Source: Phycisphaerae bacterium
Lineage (GTDB): Bacteria > Planctomycetota > Phycisphaerae > SM23-33
DNA length: 55,424 nucleotides
Direction of reading: 5' to 3'
Assembly (NCBI GenBank): GCA_011050235.1
Contig: DRGC01000030.1
Coordinates: 1 to 55,424, forward strand
The notes under the pieces: generated by a model
Seen by the model: only the letters and a program-made list of their open reading frames with translations
Database searches by the model: none
Told to the model about the DNA's origin: nothing
Part shown: piece by piece, positions 17,290-45,265 of the stretch
Position numbering within the stretch: position 1 is the first letter of the stretch
Layout of the letters: every line of letters begins with the position of its first letter
Made by a program: the position numbers and the translations under genes

Positions 17290-19152
17290 CTATTTCGTGG
17301 GCTCTCTGCGCTGGGGATGACGGAACTCGTACGAGTTTGTCTTGATCATCTCGAACGTTTGTTCAATGGTCGGCCGGTCGCCCCAATATGTTCCGTAGTA
17401 TGCGGAACGGACGATTCCTTCGGGATCGACAATGATTGTTGCCGGGCGGTTGATCCATTCGTCGTGCACCACGAACTCCATCGGATCGACCCCATACATG
17501 GCCCCTACGGCCCCTGCGTTATCGACCAGATGCGGCCACCACATGTCGTGATCGCCGACCATCAGCTTCGACCGGTAACGGTCATGGCATTCGATCGTGA
17601 ATACCTGGATGTCCGATTGCTTGAACTGCTCCTGCATCGTTATCAGGTCCTGAAACTCGCGCTGACAGACCGGGCACCAGTCGGCGAATATCCATATGAG
17701 CACGACGGTCTTCTTGTTCTTGAAAGCGGACAGGCTCCAGGTGGTCCCGTTGGTGTCCTTCAGTTCAAAATCGGGCGCCGCCTTGCCGACTTCCAACTGA
17801 CGAAATGACGCCTCGTCGAGTTCGGTCCAGGCGGCCATCACCTCGGCGCTGGTTGTCTGCTTGTCCTTGAGTCGTCCAATGGCCAGATCGGCCCGATGTT
17901 GAACATGCTGGCTCTTGTCTTCCTTTGCGGCTGCAGCCAGGGCCGGTGCAGCTTTGTCATATCCAATTTGCCCCAGCGCCTGTGCCGACTGGCCGCGAAC
18001 GATCGGATCGGGATCGTCGCTCAGCAATTTGACCAATTCCTCCCCCGCAGCCTGGACACCCAATATCCCCAAGGCCGAAACGCATACGTGACGAACATGG
18101 CGATTGTCATCGCTCAGGCCCGCTCTCAGGGCCGGGCCCGCTTCGCGCCCCGACCGCACAAGGTCACGAATCGCCAACATACGGACCCGCCAAGCGTCAT
18201 CTGTCAGATCGCCCACACCTTCGTAGCCGCTATTAGCTTCAAAATCATGCTCTCGCACACGATCGAGGATTCGACGGACGTCCGCTTCAACGCCCGTGAC
18301 CTGTTGGAGGCCTGAACCGTCCGGCTGGATGAGATAGAGGCGTTCTGCGCCGGTCCGAGTCGAGGAAAACGCTATCGACTTGCCGTCATGCGACCATGCC
18401 GGCCACTGATCGCCGCCCGCGTTCTGGGTGAGGTTGCGAACGTTCTTGCCATCGATGTCCATGATGTACAGCTCGTTGTTGCCCTCGAAGTCCCCGACGA
18501 AACAGACGTTCTTGCCATCGGGGCTCACCGCGGCGACCCAGCAGTTCGAGCCCTTGATCTTAAGGTCCGTCAATTGCTTCAGGCCGCTGCCGTCGGTGGC
18601 GTTGAAGATGTAGACCTCAAAGAACCCCGTCCGATCGGACATGAACGTAATCTTCTTGCCGTCAGGCGTCCATGAAGGGCAGCGGTCGGAGCCGGGGTCG
18701 TTGGTGAGGTTGGTCACCCCCGTGCCATCGCTGGCCATCACGAAGATGTCCATGTCGCCGTTGGCCGTGCAAATGTAGGTGATGTGAGCGTCATCGGGCG
18801 AGAACGCGGGACACTTGTCTTGCTGATCGGGCTTGTCCGTCAGGCGGCGAACGTTCGTGCCGTCGACAGCCATCGCATACAGGTCCCGGTGCGGATCATC
18901 TCGCTGGGAGTCGAAGACAATGCTCTCCCCGTCATTCGACCAATGCGGGCACATGTCGCCTGTGGGGGAATTGGTCAGATTGCTGACCTTGCCGGTTTCG
19001 ATGTTGACGACCTTCACCTCGCCACCGGACATGTAAACCAAGCGTGAATCATCGGGGGAGAAATTCGAGTGGGCATCTCCCGCCTGCAGCCCACTGCTGA
19101 CAAGGGCCAACACGGCAAGGACAGCCAAGAGCTTTGGAGTTCCATCATTCAT
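17290..19152 (-). CDS. exported TolB-propeller / HEAT-repeat / thioredoxin-like fusion
   Basis: A 620-residue three-part fusion with a signal peptide (about 1-25). Part 1 (about 28-285) is a PD40/TolB beta-propeller with six repeats such as SNFSPDDSRLVYMSGG and CPAWSxDGKxIxF-type blades, each naming a 'DGTNV'-like turn. Part 2 (about 310-440) has HEAT-like helical repeats (VRHVCVSALGILGVQAAGEEL, VRGQSAQALGQIGYDKAAPAL). Part 3 (about 455-600) is a redoxin/TlpA domain: GKAAPDFELKDTNG and the redox motif WCPVC, with IVDPEGIVRSAYYG. It should act in the periplasm or cell surface as a disulphide or peroxide redox protein docked by the propeller. A disulphide-isomerase role is inference. Confidence 0.88.
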   Translation of the reverse strand: MNDGTPKLLAVLAVLALVSSGLQAGDAHSNFSPDDSRLVYMSGGEVKVVNIETGKVSNLTNSPTGDMCPHWSNDGESIVFDSQRDDPHRDLYAMAVDGTNVRRLTDKPDQQDKCPAFSPDDAHITYICTANGDMDIFVMASDGTGVTNLTNDPGSDRCPSWTPDGKKITFMSDRTGFFEVYIFNATDGSGLKQLTDLKIKGSNCWVAAVSPDGKNVCFVGDFEGNNELYIMDIDGKNVRNLTQNAGGDQWPAWSHDGKSIAFSSTRTGAERLYLIQPDGSGLQQVTGVEADVRRILDRVREHDFEANSGYEGVGDLTDDAWRVRMLAIRDLVRSGREAGPALRAGLSDDNRHVRHVCVSALGILGVQAAGEELVKLLSDDPDPIVRGQSAQALGQIGYDKAAPALAAAAKEDKSQHVQHRADLAIGRLKDKQTTSAEVMAAWTELDEASFRQLEVGKAAPDFELKDTNGTTWSLSAFKNKKTVVLIWIFADWCPVCQREFQDLITMQEQFKQSDIQVFTIECHDRYRSKLMVGDHDMWWPHLVDNAGAVGAMYGVDPMEFVVHDEWINRPATIIVDPEGIVRSAYYGTYWGDRPTIEQTFEMIKTNSYEFRHPQRREPTK

Positions 19153-20392: not shown

Positions 20393-22213
20393 CTAGCGGA
20401 CGCTGTCGAGTTGGAGGTGATATTTGCGGCGTTTGAAGGTTATGGCTGCGCCGGGGATCTGGATCCTTACCGTGTTGGTCGTCTGGCGGATCGCCGGGGC
20501 TCTGGAGAGTTTGTGACGGGAAAACACGCTGACAAACAGGCCCGATTCCATCTTGCCGGCCTTGACGCAGATCACGTGGCCATCGGATCCCCCCCGGCCG
20601 CTCGCCCGATGCGTCACATGCACGCGCTGCGTGGCGTTGAAGGCCACGTGCAGATCAGCCTGCGTGCCTTCTAGGATGCCGACGCCTGCCGAGTCGTCCA
20701 TCTGCAGCTTCACCGGCGTGTGCCAGAACATCTTCACTCCCTCGGCCGCGATGTTCTGAACTTCATCGAGCACGATGACAGCCTGCCCGCCCCCGCCGGC
20801 GGGGTCGACGACCATCACAATGTGTCGGACGAAATGCACGTTCGCCCCGCAGGCGTGCTGGGCGTCGCAGGCCACCCAACGGCAATTGGGCTCGTTGATG
20901 GCATCGACGATGCTTCCCTGGGCGTCGATCGCGTGATCGCGGTCACCGACGACAATGGTATTGTGGCGGCTGGCCACTATCTCCTGCCCATCGGGGTCGC
21001 TGGTCGCCAGGCCTGGATGGGTGGCGCCGCCGGCGGCCAGCATCATCTCGCCGTCGACCTGAAGTTGAATCGCGTTCATGTCGCGCTGGCTGTGACTGGC
21101 CGACAGATCGCCGGTCTTGGCGGCGACATACATCGTCGGGTGAGGCCAGTGATCGGCGACGGACGCCCAGCCGATTTCGTTGAAGACCTTCACACATTTG
21201 AGGTCCGGGTCGGTGGGCGTGTCCATCCCCTCGGGGCGAAACAGCAGCGACAGCCCCACCGCCGACCACCCGTCGGTGGCGATATCGTGGCCGAACGAAT
21301 ACGTGTCCAGCCACCACGCCACTTCCTTGAGGCCGAAGTGACGGACCAGAAGGTACAGCGCCCCGTGGGTGGGAACGGTGGCGGTGTCGCCAAACCCGGC
21401 CGCGTGGCCGTTGGGGGTGAAGTAGATCGGAAACAGGCCCGTCGTATCCATCCCCCGGCGGTGGAGCAATTGCTCATCGTCCAACACGCGGCCCGCCGCC
21501 TCGTTCAGCAGCAGCACATAGCGAAGGGCATAGCCCCAGTAGCCGACCCCCTCGTCCCAGCCGCCTTCCCGGCCTAGCCCGTCGAAGAACCGTTTCAGCC
21601 CCGTCTGGGCAAGTTCGTAGGCCTTTTCGGCCTTGGGCTCTTCGTCGCTCAGCGCCAGCGCCGCCAACCCGCAGCCGCTGTTGATCACGGCGTTCCAGTT
21701 CTGGTAGCTGTCGTACCACCAGGCCTTGTCCTTGACGCTCTGACAGTAGGGGATGACGGCCTTTTTGCGGATGGCCCCGAGCACGCGAAGCCGGTCCGCC
21801 TCGGTCAGGTCCTCCCACAGCCAGTCCAGCCCGACCACGGCGGCGACGGCGGCCTCGGCTGTGCAGATATCGGCCTTCAGATCGCCGTGCGACGGGTCCA
21901 CCCACGTCGACCACGAGATGAGGTTCTTGAGTTCCTCGATGGCGCGGTCGTGGTACGCGCGGTCGGGCTCGATATGGTGAGCCACCAGCAGATCGAGAAT
22001 CCGCCCCTGCGTAGCCCGGGCGGCGTTGACGGCCGCCCCGGGGTGGCCCTGAGCGGAGAGGCTCTGCCAGGAGTTCTCGGTAATCGGCGCCGCTTCGAGA
22101 ATCAGCGAACAACGCCGATGGAGTCGATCGTAGAATGCGTCGAAAGGTCTGTCGGCAATCCGCTCACGGAGCCCCGACAATTCATCGCGACTGGCAAGTA
22201 GTCCGCGTCTCAT
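20393..22213 (-). CDS. heparinase II/III family protein
   Basis: Polysaccharide lyase-like protein of 606 residues. The N-terminal half (about 1-330) is an alpha/alpha-toroid with typical segments (YQNWNAVINSGCGLAALALSD, WDEGVGYWGYALRYVLLLNEA). The C-terminal half is beta-sandwich (SQRDMNAIQLQVDGEMMLA, NIAAEGVKMFWHTPVKLQMD). No signal peptide is visible, so it may act on imported oligosaccharides. ATG 22213 is chosen because GTCAGGAGCG precedes it; 17 more in-frame codons upstream lack a ribosome site. Candidate substrates are uronate-containing glycans; PL12, PL15 and PL21 subfamilies cannot be told apart by eye. Confidence 0.83.
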   Translation of the reverse strand: MRRGLLASRDELSGLRERIADRPFDAFYDRLHRRCSLILEAAPITENSWQSLSAQGHPGAAVNAARATQGRILDLLVAHHIEPDRAYHDRAIEELKNLISWSTWVDPSHGDLKADICTAEAAVAAVVGLDWLWEDLTEADRLRVLGAIRKKAVIPYCQSVKDKAWWYDSYQNWNAVINSGCGLAALALSDEEPKAEKAYELAQTGLKRFFDGLGREGGWDEGVGYWGYALRYVLLLNEAAGRVLDDEQLLHRRGMDTTGLFPIYFTPNGHAAGFGDTATVPTHGALYLLVRHFGLKEVAWWLDTYSFGHDIATDGWSAVGLSLLFRPEGMDTPTDPDLKCVKVFNEIGWASVADHWPHPTMYVAAKTGDLSASHSQRDMNAIQLQVDGEMMLAAGGATHPGLATSDPDGQEIVASRHNTIVVGDRDHAIDAQGSIVDAINEPNCRWVACDAQHACGANVHFVRHIVMVVDPAGGGGQAVIVLDEVQNIAAEGVKMFWHTPVKLQMDDSAGVGILEGTQADLHVAFNATQRVHVTHRASGRGGSDGHVICVKAGKMESGLFVSVFSRHKLSRAPAIRQTTNTVRIQIPGAAITFKRRKYHLQLDSVR

Positions 22214-22393
22214 CGCTCCTGACCCACCTTCCGGGGGATGAAAAACAAACGCGCATGAAGACAAAAGATCTCTAACGAAAGGATAATCATCTGCGGGGAA
22301 GATTTCAAGGGCTGCACCGTCGCTGTCCTTTTTTCTCGACGGCGCCGAGCGGCGCCGAGCGGATTTGGGCCTCTACGATCCGCCAACAGCGAG

Positions 22394-22399
22394 TATAAT
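22394..22399 (+). promoter_or_regulatory. -10 box of the ECF sigma operon
   Basis: Perfect TATAAT ends 9 nt before the ATG at 22409, so the mRNA would be near leaderless. No convincing -35 hexamer lies at 16-18 nt. Confidence 0.35.
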
Positions 22400-22408
22400 C
22401 CCCTCACG

Positions 22409-23068
22409 ATGGCCCGGCGCAAACAGGAATCGCTCGACATCAACGACACCGGCAGTTCGGCCGGCGAGGTCACCGATGCGCAGTTGTTACAGCGCCACCT
22501 CCAGGGAGATTCGGCTGCCTTCGGCGCGCTGATCGAACGCTACCGCCAGGAACTGTACGCGTTCCTGGCCCGGTTCGTCGGCGACCGCCACCTGGCGGAG
22601 GATGTCTTTCAGGAAGCGTTCCTGCAGTTGCACATCTCGGCCGGGAGTTTCGACCTCACCAAGCGGCTGAAGCCTTGGCTGTTCACCATCGCCGCCAACA
22701 AGGCGCGAGATGCCCTGCGCAAGCGATCTCGCCGGCAGATGGCCCCGCTGGACGCATCCGTGGGCGGCGGCGACGAGGACGCCGCATCCTACGGCGACCT
22801 CATGCCTGCAGATATCCCTGCCCCGCAGGAAAGTCTTATGAACCTCGAACTGCGCCAGTCCGTAGAAAACATAGTTAGACAGATGCCCGACCATCTCCGG
22901 ATAGTGCTTGTTTTGGCATACTTTAGCGAGTTGCCCTACAAGGAAATCGCCGAGATCGTCGAGGCGCCGCTTGGGACGGTCAAATCTCGCCTGCACGCAG
23001 CCGTCAAAATGTTCGCAGAAAAATGGCAAGGCGCAGCAAAGCGATTGGGCTATGAACACGAATCATGA
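22409..23068 (+). CDS. RNA polymerase ECF sigma factor
   Basis: Extracytoplasmic-function sigma factor of 219 residues. Sigma region 2 spans about 20-100 (LIERYRQELYAFLARFVGDRH, AEDVFQEAFLQLH, KPWLFTIAANKARDALRKRSRR); sigma region 4 spans about 150-205 (MPDHLRIVLVLAYFSELPYKE, EIVEAPLGTVKSRLHAAVK). There is no C-terminal extension beyond region 4. Its last 17 nt overlap the start of the downstream membrane protein gene, the arrangement of sigma/anti-sigma pairs. The upstream -10 box sits very near the ATG. Target genes cannot be deduced. Confidence 0.95.
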   Translation: MARRKQESLDINDTGSSAGEVTDAQLLQRHLQGDSAAFGALIERYRQELYAFLARFVGDRHLAEDVFQEAFLQLHISAGSFDLTKRLKPWLFTIAANKARDALRKRSRRQMAPLDASVGGGDEDAASYGDLMPADIPAPQESLMNLELRQSVENIVRQMPDHLRIVLVLAYFSELPYKEIAEIVEAPLGTVKSRLHAAVKMFAEKWQGAAKRLGYEHES

Positions 23069-24065
23069 ACAGTCTTATCGGGATGAGCAACTCCTGATCG
23101 ACTTTCTACTGGGCAAGTGCGACCAGGCCCAGGCCGAGGAGGTCATTCGTCGCCTGCGAAGCGACGAGGCCTTCCACAAGCTTCACGACGATCTGGACCG
23201 CACCTTCGCCGCCTTCGGCGCCCTGTCGGAACCCGTTGCTGCAGATGATCTTACTGAACGTACCCTCCAAATGATCCGCCAGTCGGATTCGGACAACGCC
23301 CCTCTGGCCAGCCGACTGGGCGGCCGATCGGCGGCGCCGACGTTCAGCCTGCGAGAGCTCGCCGGCATCGCTGCGGCGGTGGTGCTGATGGCTGCGGTCT
23401 TCATCCCCTCGATGCGGTCCGCCCGGCGTCAGGAGCTTCAACGCCGCTGCGCCAGCCAGGTCGGACAGATGGGAGCAGCCCTGACGCGCCACGCCATCGC
23501 CAACGGCGGCGTGCTGCCCAACGCCGATCACCAGCGACGGCGATGGCTGCCGATCAACGGCAAGCCGATAGCCAGCACGTCGGCGGGCCTGTTCGAACTG
23601 GTGAAGGGCCAGTACGCCCCGGCGGCGGTCTTTGTCTGCCCGGCTACCGCCTCGCGGCCTGCGCGATATGTGATCCACCTGAAGATGACGGACTTTCCGT
23701 CGGACGCCTACATCAGCTATTCCTACCAGCATACGCTGGGCGGACGCCGCATCTCGCTGTACAACCCGCGGCTCAAGCCCGTCGCCGAGCAGATGGCCGT
23801 TCTCGCCGACAGCAGCCCCGTCTTTGTCGGCGGACAGTTCAACCCCGACCGCATCGCCAGCTCCAGCGACAACCACCACGGCAGGGGCCAGAATATCTGG
23901 TTCCTCGCCGGGCACGTCGCGTGGAGCCCCACCCCCGCCGCCGGCGTAGGCGGCAACAATATCTATCTCATCGAAGGGCTCGACAGCTACCGCGGCGACG
24001 AAACCCCCACCGATGAGACCGACACCTTCCTCCTGCCGGCCTATTCCATGGGCGCCAGCAGATAG
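23052..24065 (+). CDS. probable anti-sigma factor with pilin/DUF1559-like outer domain
   Basis: Product of 337 residues overlapping the ECF sigma gene by 17 nt. The N-terminal cytoplasmic part (1-110; LIDFLLGKCDQAQAEEVIRRL) resembles short helical anti-sigma domains without a zinc HxxxCxxC. One transmembrane segment follows at about 113-132 (LAGIAAAVVLMAAVFI). Just after it, ARRQELQRRCASQVGQMGAALTRHAIANGG resembles the segment after the pilin helix in DUF1559 pseudopilins, and the C terminus has FLAGHVAWSP like the DGHV/DGSV end of that family. Function as membrane-bound inhibitor with an outer sensing domain is inferred from gene order and architecture; a GspG-like structural role is the alternative. 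Confidence 0.72.
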   Translation: MNTNHEQSYRDEQLLIDFLLGKCDQAQAEEVIRRLRSDEAFHKLHDDLDRTFAAFGALSEPVAADDLTERTLQMIRQSDSDNAPLASRLGGRSAAPTFSLRELAGIAAAVVLMAAVFIPSMRSARRQELQRRCASQVGQMGAALTRHAIANGGVLPNADHQRRRWLPINGKPIASTSAGLFELVKGQYAPAAVFVCPATASRPARYVIHLKMTDFPSDAYISYSYQHTLGGRRISLYNPRLKPVAEQMAVLADSSPVFVGGQFNPDRIASSSDNHHGRGQNIWFLAGHVAWSPTPAAGVGGNNIYLIEGLDSYRGDETPTDETDTFLLPAYSMGASR

Positions 24066-24089: not shown

Positions 24090-24656
24090 TCAGCTTCCGG
24101 TCGTGAAGGCGGTCAGTTCCATCGTTGTCGTTGTCGACCCGTTGGGCCCGTCCATCCGGGAGACCATCTTCACCTGTCCGCCCGGGACCTGATCGCTCTG
24201 CCAGGTCTTGGTGACGACCGTCTGGCCACCCATGACCATCGTCATCTCGGTCCACTGACACTGCAGTGTCTTGCCCGCGATGGTCAGTTCTTCGCTGCCC
24301 TGGGTGACTTTCGGCTTGGCGGCGGGGTCGGCGGGCTCGGGAGGTCTGTCCATTTTCGCCGGGATCACGCGCGTCTGCGAGGGCGAGGTCATCGTCATGC
24401 CGCCGGCCTGCATCTCGGTGGAGGTCTCGACGGTCACCTCGGCGGCGGTCTTCGACGTGAGCTTCGTCGTCTGGAGCATCTCCGTTTTGCCGCCCTGAGA
24501 TTCAATGACGATCCGCATGGTTACGCTGGCCCCGGGCTCAAAGGCCGCCCACCGCTGGTACTCGGGATTGTCGATCTTGTCTTCGGCGATGCTGACCGAA
24601 ACCCACACCGCCAGCACAGCCGCCGATAACGCCAGTCTGGTTGCCAGAGTCTTCAT
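24090..24656 (-). CDS. exported protein of unknown function
   Basis: Product of 188 residues with a signal peptide (MKTLATRLALSAAVLAVWVSVSIA, cleavage about 24). The mature part is beta-rich with Thr/Met-rich stretches (VETSTEMQAGGMTMTSPSQTR, WTEMTMVMGGQTVVTKTW); one Cys is present in TLQCQW. ATG 24656 has AAAGGG upstream; an alternative ATG lies 15 nt further upstream. Repeated 'GGQ/GGK-V-KM' strands suggest a small beta-barrel, but I recognise no family. It converges on the sigma-factor operon and diverges from xseA. Confidence 0.7.
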   Translation of the reverse strand: MKTLATRLALSAAVLAVWVSVSIAEDKIDNPEYQRWAAFEPGASVTMRIVIESQGGKTEMLQTTKLTSKTAAEVTVETSTEMQAGGMTMTSPSQTRVIPAKMDRPPEPADPAAKPKVTQGSEELTIAGKTLQCQWTEMTMVMGGQTVVTKTWQSDQVPGGQVKMVSRMDGPNGSTTTTMELTAFTTGS

Positions 24657-24786
24657 CACATGCCCTTTCATTCTGGACTTGCCAAGCCGCATCCGCAGTG
24701 CGGCCTCGGATTTCAGCATACCCGCCGCCCGCCGCCCATGCAACGGCCAACGCGCCGGGGTGCATTTGGAAACGGACACTGTTAGA

Positions 24787-26376
24787 ATGCGCGCTGTGAA
24801 CGATTCCAGCAGGTTCCTGTTCGATCCAGACAAGGCCCGCCAGCCGCGCCGCGGGCCGGATGTCGGCGCCTCGCGCCCCGACAAGCGCGCCGCAGCCGGC
24901 ATGTCCGTCTCCGCCCTGGTTGCACGCATCAAGAACGCCCTGGCCGAGAGCTTCCCCAAGTCGATCACCGTCATCGGCGAATTGAGCAACTGCAGTCTGG
25001 CCGCATCCGGCCACTTCTACTTCACCCTCAAGGACGCCAACGCCGCCATCCCGGCCGTCATGTGGCGCCGCGGCGCATCCAAGCTGAGATTCCGCCCCGA
25101 GGACGGTATGGAGGTGGTTCTCACCGGCCGGGTCGACGTCTACGACGCCCAGGGCAAGCTCCAACTGTACGTCGATTCGATAACGCTCAAGGGCGCGGGC
25201 GAACTGGAACTGGCGTTTCGACAGCTCAAGGACAAGCTCCAGCGTGAGGGCCTGTTCGACCCGGCCCGCAAGAAGCCCCTCCCCCACATCCCCCGCGCGA
25301 TCGGCGTGGTCTCCAGCCCCACCGGGGCCGCCATCCGCGACATCGGCCGAACGCTCCGCCGCCGTTGGCCGGCTGCGACCGTCTATCTGCTGCCCGCCCC
25401 GGTCCAGGGCGAAGGCGCCGCCGAAAAGATCGCCGCCGCCATCGCCGCCATCGACCGCAACGCCCAGCGGCTTCAGATCGACGTCATCCTGGTCGCGCGC
25501 GGGGGCGGCAGCCTGGAAGACCTGTGGGCGTTCAACGAAGAGCCTGTCGCCCGCGCCATCGCCGCCGCCCGCACGCCCGTCATCACCGGCGTCGGCCACG
25601 AGGTGGACATCACCATCGCCGACCTGGCCGCCGACGTCCGCGCCGCCACCCCCACCGCCGCCGCCGAGCGCGCCGTGCCCGACCGCACGGAGATGGGCCA
25701 TCGCATCGGCCAACTCGCCGCCCGCCTGAGCGGGTTGGCGACCGCCCTGCTCGCCGGCGCCCGCCGCGACCTGCAGAGCGTCCAGAGGAGCGTGGTCTTT
25801 CGCGACCCCACCTGGCGCCTGCGCAGCGCCGCGCAGCGCCTGGACGAACTGGCCCTTCGCCTGCCGGGCGGGCTGAAGGATTGTCTCGCCCGCGTGCGGC
25901 GCCGGCTCGAGCCGGCCGGCAACCGGCTGGCCGCCCTGCACCCGGCCCGGCTGGCCGAGCGCGCCCGAAGTCGACTGGACCGTCTGACCAGCCGGCTGGC
26001 CTGGGTGCTGGGCGCCCGCAGCAAGCTCGCGGGCGACCGACTGGCCGACCTGTGCCGGCGCCTGGAGGCCCATCATCCGCGCCATCGCCTGGCCCTTGCC
26101 CGCCAGGCCGTCGCCGCCGCGCTGCGACAACTGCAGGGCCTGAGCTACCGCGCCACGCTCACAAGGGGCTTTAGCGTCACACGCAACGCCGACGGGAAGA
26201 TCCTGCGCTTAGCCGCCGAGGCCGCCGCCGGCGACCGAATCGCCACCGAACTGGTCGATGGGCGGATTGACAGCGTCGTCTCGGCCGGGCCCGACCGACC
26301 CGACCGCCAGAGACCAAAACGCCGCCAACGACAAGCCGGCGGGGCGACGTTGTTCGATGAAGACACCGCCCCCTGA
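24787..26376 (+). CDS. xseA: exodeoxyribonuclease VII large subunit
   Basis: Large subunit of exonuclease VII, which degrades single-stranded DNA. In 529 residues: the OB-fold (SVSALVARIKNAL, VIGELSNCSLAASGHFYFTLKD, VVLTGRVDVYDAQGKLQLYV) at about 38-130, the catalytic core GVVSSPTGAAIRDI, VILVARGGGSLEDLWAFNEE and ITGVGHEVDITIADLAAD, then a long helical arm and C-terminal YRATLTRGFSVTRN. E. coli XseA is 456 residues; the excess is an N-terminal leader and Arg-rich helices. ATG 24787 overlaps a TAGAAT box, so GTG 24796 or ATG 24901 are alternative starts. xseB follows 39 nt later. Confidence 0.94.
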   Translation: MRAVNDSSRFLFDPDKARQPRRGPDVGASRPDKRAAAGMSVSALVARIKNALAESFPKSITVIGELSNCSLAASGHFYFTLKDANAAIPAVMWRRGASKLRFRPEDGMEVVLTGRVDVYDAQGKLQLYVDSITLKGAGELELAFRQLKDKLQREGLFDPARKKPLPHIPRAIGVVSSPTGAAIRDIGRTLRRRWPAATVYLLPAPVQGEGAAEKIAAAIAAIDRNAQRLQIDVILVARGGGSLEDLWAFNEEPVARAIAAARTPVITGVGHEVDITIADLAADVRAATPTAAAERAVPDRTEMGHRIGQLAARLSGLATALLAGARRDLQSVQRSVVFRDPTWRLRSAAQRLDELALRLPGGLKDCLARVRRRLEPAGNRLAALHPARLAERARSRLDRLTSRLAWVLGARSKLAGDRLADLCRRLEAHHPRHRLALARQAVAAALRQLQGLSYRATLTRGFSVTRNADGKILRLAAEAAAGDRIATELVDGRIDSVVSAGPDRPDRQRPKRRQRQAGGATLFDEDTAP

Positions 26377-44425: not shown

Positions 44426-45265
44426 ATGACTCAACGCCCCGCCCCGAAGATCTTACCCCGTCGTCCGTTGCGTTCTCGCCGTAACGGCTGGACCATCCAG
44501 GAGATGATCGTGGTCTGTGCCGTGATCGCCGTGTTGACGGCCCTGGTCGTGCCGACCTACACGAACATCAAGGAAACTCAGCGCCGCGCGAAATGCCAAG
44601 CCAATGTCGGCGGATTCGCCAAGATGTGCCACATCTACGCGATGTCCAAGGGCGGCGCCGCCAACCGAGCCAATCGACTGGCCCTGCCGGTGGGCCGAAT
44701 CGACGATCCGACCGATGCAACGGACCAGGACAACTACCTCCAGATTCGCACGGAGACCTACACCGAGCTTCGCACGAACTACGGCCTGAGTGAGCAGTTG
44801 GCCAAATGCGAAAGCGTCAACCTGATCGACCATGACTGGATGTTCAACACGGGCGGAGAGACGATGTACATGGGCCTGATCTATTGGGGGGGGCGCGACG
44901 ACATCATGCCCGGCGCCCCCGGCGATCCGGAGTATTACACGCCCGCGTGGAAGGATATCCACAAGCGCGAGAACCCGCCGGAGTCGGGGATCTGGGAAGA
45001 ATACACGCCGACGACCAACACGCTTGTGACGTGCATGATGTACGACGTCAACGCCGCCGGCAACGCGGGCACCGATGCGCCCGAGGACGTCTCGATCATG
45101 CCGCACGTCGGCAGCCGCTGCAAGACGTTCCCCAGCACCGAGGAGCCTGAACTGGATTCCGTCGGTATAGCGGTGGGCTATCTGGATACGTCCGCCCGCT
45201 GGGTGCCGTTCGGTGAACTCAACCCGCTCGACCAGTTCCAGCGGATCTGGTACTCCCCCAACTAG
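44426..45265 (+). CDS. pseudopilin-like protein with prepilin cleavage site
   Basis: Product of 279 residues. A basic leader of about 21 residues is followed by GWTIQEMIVVCAVIAVLTAL: the Gly before the hydrophobic helix and Glu at +5 fit a type IV prepilin/type II secretion signal. After the helix, NIKETQRRAKCQANVGGFAKM is like the pilin-domain helix seen in planctomycete DUF1559/GspG-type proteins. The rest (about 75-279) is globular and unfamiliar. It may be exported by a type II or IV machine; those genes are not adjacent. Confidence 0.82.
   Translation: MTQRPAPKILPRRPLRSRRNGWTIQEMIVVCAVIAVLTALVVPTYTNIKETQRRAKCQANVGGFAKMCHIYAMSKGGAANRANRLALPVGRIDDPTDATDQDNYLQIRTETYTELRTNYGLSEQLAKCESVNLIDHDWMFNTGGETMYMGLIYWGGRDDIMPGAPGDPEYYTPAWKDIHKRENPPESGIWEEYTPTTNTLVTCMMYDVNAAGNAGTDAPEDVSIMPHVGSRCKTFPSTEEPELDSVGIAVGYLDTSARWVPFGELNPLDQFQRIWYSPN

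Follow-up and report, generated by a model that had tools for sequence, protein, structure and literature searches.

Anti-sigma factors are known to carry many kinds of sensor domain. Among the closest described systems are the pairs RsiW/SigW and RseA/RpoE and the anti-sigma factors ChrR and RskA, with which the gene pair described here shares the gene order, the overlap of the two genes and an N-terminal helical anti-sigma domain; like RsiW, RseA and RskA, the partner protein has a single transmembrane helix. Unlike class I transmembrane anti-sigma factors, its outer part is predicted to be a pilin module, and the protein lacks a zinc-ligand motif. Pilins already have a place in gene regulation in Pseudomonas, where they serve as signals, within the membrane or in the envelope, that reach gene expression: PilA communicates with PilS through contact inside the membrane, according to the citation of this work in PMC6058289 (Kilmury and Burrows 2016), and a truncated PilA triggers the AlgW-dependent loss of the anti-sigma factor MucA (PMC3684759). 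In those systems the pilin is the signal, whereas here it would be part of the regulator. The portions of open-access papers covered by our search hold no published description of an anti-sigma factor with a pilin outer domain, in agreement with the initial annotation, which had held that an anti-sigma factor with a pseudopilin-like domain as its sensor would be new.

The pair lies in a window of 55,424 nucleotides, that is, the whole stretch of Phycisphaerae (Planctomycetota) DNA that was analyzed, and comprises the following features:

22394 to 22399, + strand: TATAAT, a possible housekeeping -10 element just before the sigma gene, with a weak -35 (putative site)
22409 to 23068, + strand: ECF-type sigma-70 family RNA polymerase sigma factor with regions 2 and 4, 219 aa (Pfam and orthologue E values)
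23052 to 24065, + strand: anti-sigma-like membrane protein with a predicted pilin-type outer module, 337 aa, ATG at 23052 (translation and upstream sigma gene)
23052 to 23068, + strand: 17-nt overlap of the sigma and partner coding regions (sequence; overlap common in orthologues)
23058 to 23315, + strand: predicted anti-sigma domain, residues 3-88, with helices 3-19, 25-37, 39-57 and 67-88 and no zinc-ligand motif (AlphaFold2, structure alignment, profiles)
23343 to 23501, + strand: pilin-type alpha-1, residues 98-150, FSLREL..IPS, a transmembrane segment with an amphipathic extension (AlphaFold2, structure and profile register, residue table)
23502 to 24041, + strand: pilin-type globular domain, residues 151-330 (hmmsearch against prepilins; shared Cys)
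23871 to 23924, + strand: H-X9-DG-like motif NHHGRGQNIWFLAGHVAW, residues 274-291 (N274, H275, G279, Q280, N281 and W291 common with pilins)

The upstream ORF scored above the cut-offs for Sigma70_r2 (E 9.5e-18; 64.2 bits against a Pfam cut-off of 24), Sigma70_r4_2 (E 5.9e-13; 48.7 bits against 25.7) and TIGR02937 sigma70-ECF (100 bits against 42.9), with SigW/RpoE-like models among its best matches, and thus belongs to the ECF sigma factors, as first annotated; the 17-nt overlap reported at the same time, at 23052-23068, is also correct. The partner protein, P0001, had no Pfam match and an NCBIfam anti-sigma match over residues 14-154 that was sub-threshold, so that no curated family of either collection was reached above its cut-off. 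The segment that had drawn attention to it, RRQELQRRCASQVGQMGAAL, indeed follows the single transmembrane segment. The other landmark, GQNIWFLAGHVAWSP, had been placed near the end of the protein; it lies near the C terminus and not at it, as about 45 residues follow, including a conserved tail, YxGxExP...DTFLLP.

The remaining genes of the window provided some side observations. The divergent neighbor of the sigma gene (20393-22264, - strand) matches DUF4962 just over the cut-off and has a sub-threshold heparinase II/III-like C-terminal domain, and a 620-aa protein (17290-19152, - strand) combines PD40 beta-propeller repeats, HEAT repeats and an AhpC/TSA-type thioredoxin-like domain. The listed ORFs at 24090-24989 (- strand) and 24505-26376 (+ strand) overlap on opposite strands; since homology to xseA begins only at residue 133 of the latter and the former has an internal signal-peptide-like start, their true starts probably do not overlap. 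A 279-aa prepilin-like protein (44426-45265, + strand) has an unusual class III signal, NG/WTIQEM, with Trp at +1.

We modeled the partner protein with AlphaFold2 on the orthologue alignment (mean pLDDT 87). The model shows four N-terminal helices, a weak linker around residues 90-93, one 50-residue helix (100-150) and a domain with four strands. The best structural matches of the N-terminal part are anti-sigma domains: in VIA-align, residues 7-77 superimposed on RsiW (Z 6.2, rmsd 3.5, 70 aligned), and the N-terminal part also on RseA (Z 4.5) and ChrR (Z 3.7), moderate values in a range that can reflect a common arrangement of helices. The anti-sigma profile NF052375 was found in 28/28 orthologues, its score in the window protein being below the cut-off, and anti-sigmaE PRK13920 in 18/28; a PDB sequence-profile search placed RskA on profile positions 13-70 (E 0.62). 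The protein thus carries the N-terminal helical domain of class I transmembrane anti-sigma factors. The H-x3-C-x2-C motif of zinc-binding anti-sigma (ZAS) proteins is absent from the window protein and from the alignment of the 28 orthologues (A1), placing the protein outside that subgroup. Because no curated family is reached above its cut-off and binding of the sigma factor by the partner is itself a prediction, one could suppose that a pilin-like protein has come to lie behind the sigma gene by chance and is no anti-sigma factor. We give very little credence to this idea, given the superposition of the N-terminal domain on RsiW, RseA and ChrR and the profile match in every orthologue; the distribution and the variants of the pair, described below, also speak against it.

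For the outer part, structure prediction, solved structures and sequence homology agree on a pilin- or pseudopilin-like module, as the initial annotation had proposed, and the fold unrelated to pilins that would have spoken against its proposal did not appear. The best structural matches of this part are pilins, at Z values that are moderate in both cases: VIA-align superimposed residues 95-305 on PilA4 of Thermus (Z 6.0) and the stretch 98-306 on residues 1-138 of gonococcal pilin (Z 4.2). The predicted fold, a long alpha-1 followed by a beta domain, is that of type IV pilins and pseudopilins. Foldseek alone gave no significant match, its best being a type IVb pilus at E 0.45. In a PDB profile search, geopilin (E 0.0027), PilA (0.02), other pilins and GspG were matched, each weakly on its own, and the register agreed, most matches aligning mature residue 1 with position 96 of the profile; by both sequence and structure, F98 corresponds to residue 1 of mature pilins. 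A long alpha-1 running from the equivalent of F1, with E5 and P22, the beta domain, the Cys pair and the NH..GQN motif are shared with type IV pilins and type II secretion pseudopilins (Thermus PilA4, GspG and the H-X9-DG prepilins of Phycisphaerae).

The module is also related to prepilins outside the transmembrane helix. Of all other proteins encoded in its own genome, the partner resembles most closely a true prepilin, L002 (GFTLIELLVVIGIITTLMSILIP; E 2.8e-10, covering residues 61-332). L002 clears the cut-offs of PF07963 and TIGR02532, both prepilin models, and matches the orthologue profile at E 9.7e-30. With a profile of the globular part lacking the transmembrane helix, hmmsearch recovered L002 at E 1e-23 and other prepilins of the class at values down to 8e-31 and gave 0/1300 matches to shuffled sequences, which argues that the resemblance to pilins is not due to chance. 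(These are single-sequence hmmsearch values, used rather than hhalign, whose pilin set included L074, a copy of the anti-sigma protein without its anti-sigma domain.) Residues common to the anti-sigma proteins and the pilins are C133, C196, D253, N274-H275, G279-Q280-N281 and W291. Cys196 and Cys133, the latter at the end of alpha-1, probably form a pair; each is replaced by Ser in six of the sigma-adjacent sequences, as would suit such a disulfide. The motif NHHGRGQNIWFLAGHVAW resembles NH-x10-DG, with one residue more than H-X9-DG, and has A-G in the window in place of D-G. The likeness to DUF1559 claimed at first holds in a loose sense, through related prepilins: H-X9-DG-type prepilins of the class and phylum provide the link, some of them passing the PF07596 cut-off over the alpha-1 region. 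The formal DUF1559 family (PF07596) has no match in P0001 and reached 3/28 orthologues below threshold (best E 0.021), and H-X9-DG-CTERM (TIGR04294) likewise has none in P0001 and a sub-threshold match in 1/28 (E 0.012). Altogether, model and sequence comparisons support the reading of the partner as a fusion of an anti-sigma domain with an outer module of pilin type.

We then assessed how widely the pair is kept. Scanning genome contigs with P0001 alone gave no relative. In 35 genomes of the same family the partner was matched in 32, a few of these at the level of prepilins only. A search with the A1 profile found near full-length relatives throughout the class Phycisphaerae, and a search of genome contigs with a second alignment, A2, gave 9 loci. 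The sigma gene lies directly upstream of the partner in 31/31 order-level loci with enough upstream sequence, excluding L017, which is truncated at the edge of its contig, and L034, an extra copy that lacks the anti-sigma domain; at the level of the class it does so in 19/19 such loci, the 20th locus checked being L074, the same extra copy. At these loci the partner gene has the position of class I anti-sigma factors, directly downstream of their sigma genes. The two genes overlap by 4-34 nt in most orthologues or are separated by a gap of a few nt, and orthologues of the sigma factor (E 1e-68 to 1e-87) are sharply separated from its paralogues (1e-38 or worse). The pairing spans about 20 families, and divergent partner members also adjoin a sigma gene in families f5, f6, f15, f19, f22 and f24; a chance neighbor would hardly be kept class-wide. 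In families f3 and f12 the genomes tested hold no orthologue of the sigma factor, and the best A1 matches there are ordinary prepilins. The named relatives of the gene pair are mostly Phycisphaerae MAGs, and among the phylum genomes drawn there was no full-length relative outside the class, save for one partial match (G369, family f57), with a second partial match (G327) in the same group. No conserved neighbors accompany the pair, the next largest clusters being antisense ORFs of the pair itself. In genome G012, the extra copy of the pilin module (L034/L074) has neither an anti-sigma domain nor a nearby sigma gene, and a diverged full pair (L075) lies on another contig. Retention of the pair across almost the whole class is thus close to universal.

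Two variants of the pair show how its parts can be separated or exchanged. In family f8, what follows the sigma orthologue is a soluble protein, about 100 aa long, that matches the anti-sigma domain only (L161, L162; in L163 this protein is assigned by position and resemblance) and has no transmembrane or pilin part; the membrane helix and the pilin module appear to have been lost there. In f57, outside the class, the protein at L146:2550-3377 has a zf-HC2 domain (27.5 bits, cut-off 22.2), a transmembrane helix and a pilin-like end, whose C-terminal part matches GspG below threshold, and the one at L159:1507-2304 has a visible zinc motif, a transmembrane helix and a pilin-like end; a sigma gene lies upstream in both. 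(An AlphaFold2 model of the L146 variant, run without an alignment, had a pLDDT of 48 and was unusable.) The anti-sigma-domain-only protein of f8 and the zinc-type domain joined to a pilin-like end in f57 indicate that the parts are modular, and the latter suggests that pilin-type anti-sigma factors reach beyond Phycisphaerae. Both also count against a chance neighbor, as the anti-sigma domain persists alone beside the sigma factor in one group and is replaced by another anti-sigma domain in the other. The two genes at our locus are therefore probably an ECF sigma/transmembrane anti-sigma pair, with predicted binding of the sigma factor.

The prepilin signal at the start of alpha-1 is degenerate in the window protein: F1, E5 and P22 are kept, the Gly at -1 that marks the prepilin peptidase site is Thr, and +4 is Arg. 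The same holds more widely, in counts that are approximate, as is the alignment of the most divergent rows, and in which the 35 pilin rows include two, L017 and L034, that are in fact relatives of the anti-sigma proteins. At -1, Gly occurs in 8/79 sigma-adjacent proteins (Thr in 26, Arg in 17) versus 29/35 pilins; +4 is R/K in 46/79, versus I/V/L in most pilins; and +5 is E/D in 58/79, versus Glu in 35/35. By these residues, the prepilin-peptidase site is lost and much of the remaining signal is kept. In contrast to pilins, which have a short leader, the protein has an anti-sigma domain in this place, and the loss of Gly-1 together with R/K at +4 indicates that it probably escapes cleavage and does not enter pili as an ordinary subunit. 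Within the window's order the class III signal retains F1, E5 and P22, which would suit a mechanism in which prepilin peptidase cuts before F98 and frees the anti-sigma domain, or its complex with the sigma factor, from the membrane; with T or R at -1 in 43/79 proteins, Gly there in so few, and R/K frequent at +4, we consider such a release highly improbable. In a maximum-likelihood tree of 114 modules, one branch splits the anti-sigma from the pilin modules (support 93/93) and the anti-sigma proteins largely group by host family, which fits one fusion followed by vertical descent. We infer the direction, from pilin to anti-sigma factor, from the far wider occurrence of pilins.

Upstream of the orthologues in the window's order, sigma70-type sites were found in 60% of cases versus 14% in controls; a shared ECF motif was sought in this order and none was found. 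When 50 upstream regions, nearly all from outside the order, were scanned de novo, GAAC followed 17 or 18 bases on by CGT or GTA occurred in 17-18 of them; in shuffled controls no such pair occurred in more than 11. These ECF-type sites, [TC]GAAC[CT]-N15/16-CGTA with variable first bases, are present in about eleven families and lie at or just before the sigma start in L070, L071, L072, L073, L078, L079, L080, L083, L086, L088, L090 and L096, mostly just before a possible start codon, so that their transcripts may be nearly leaderless. Compared with the SigW promoter consensus, the sites in these families, which are related to that of the window, are SigW-like, and their position before the sigma gene resembles the autoregulation of SigW. 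A genome-wide scan of five f4 genomes recovered the sigma gene's own site and gave counts similar to those of a reversed-pattern control, except in G071 (33 versus 19); as the pattern is not enriched in four of the five, a regulon cannot be named from it.

Based on these results, we propose a model in which the four-helix domain (residues 3-88) would lie in the cytoplasm and tether the sigma factor to the membrane. The remainder would be a type IV pilin, with an uncleavable N-terminal helix as transmembrane anchor and the beta domain outside. The leader peptide of a prepilin would have turned into a sigma-binding domain as its peptidase site decayed, and the pilin may stay in the membrane as a monomer-like sensor. 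There it could contact the products or the machinery of type IV pili or type II-secretion-like systems through pilin-like helix-helix or domain contacts, and unassembled pilins or blocked assembly would lead to release of the sigma factor by regulated proteolysis or a conformational change. Taken whole, from an uncleaved-pilin anti-sigma factor that meets pilus or type II secretion products or machinery to the freeing of sigma, this is our best explanation, and our confidence in it is evenly divided. Somewhat more tentatively, we suggest that the captured, uncleavable pilin serves as a pilin mimic, whose alpha-1 monitors the state of pilins or the assembly machine and thereby controls an ECF sigma factor class-wide.

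We favor contact with pilins or with the assembly platform because the module keeps pilin features in its membrane helix. T2SSF is present in 297/298 genomes of the class, so assembly machinery is near universal and its co-occurrence with the pair carries no signal. About one in four sigma-adjacent proteins lacks E/D5, implying that pilin-pilin contact is not strictly required. Nearly as likely as such contact is a protein of the same anatomy in which the pilin fold is a general extracytoplasmic sensor, of a ligand, envelope stress or the cell wall, with no part for pili or secretion. The decay of E5 and F1 in several families would fit a sensor of this kind, as would the finding that no pilus or secretion genes are conserved beside the pair and the conserved globular residues, including the C-terminal tail YxGxE..DxFLxP, which most of the pilins compared lack; yet many families keep the whole pilin module with its long helix and, mostly, F1, E5 and P22, which exceeds what a ligand pocket would need.

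Whichever signal is sensed, a pair so nearly universal in a large and little-studied class is probably a basic regulator there, and the fusion shows that a regulatory domain can take the place of a prepilin leader. It also opens to testing the question of how bacteria with many encoded prepilins keep track of the assembly of pili or secretion systems. If the model of the captured pilin is true, such a mimic would provide a direct transcriptional read-out of pilus or pseudopilus assembly.
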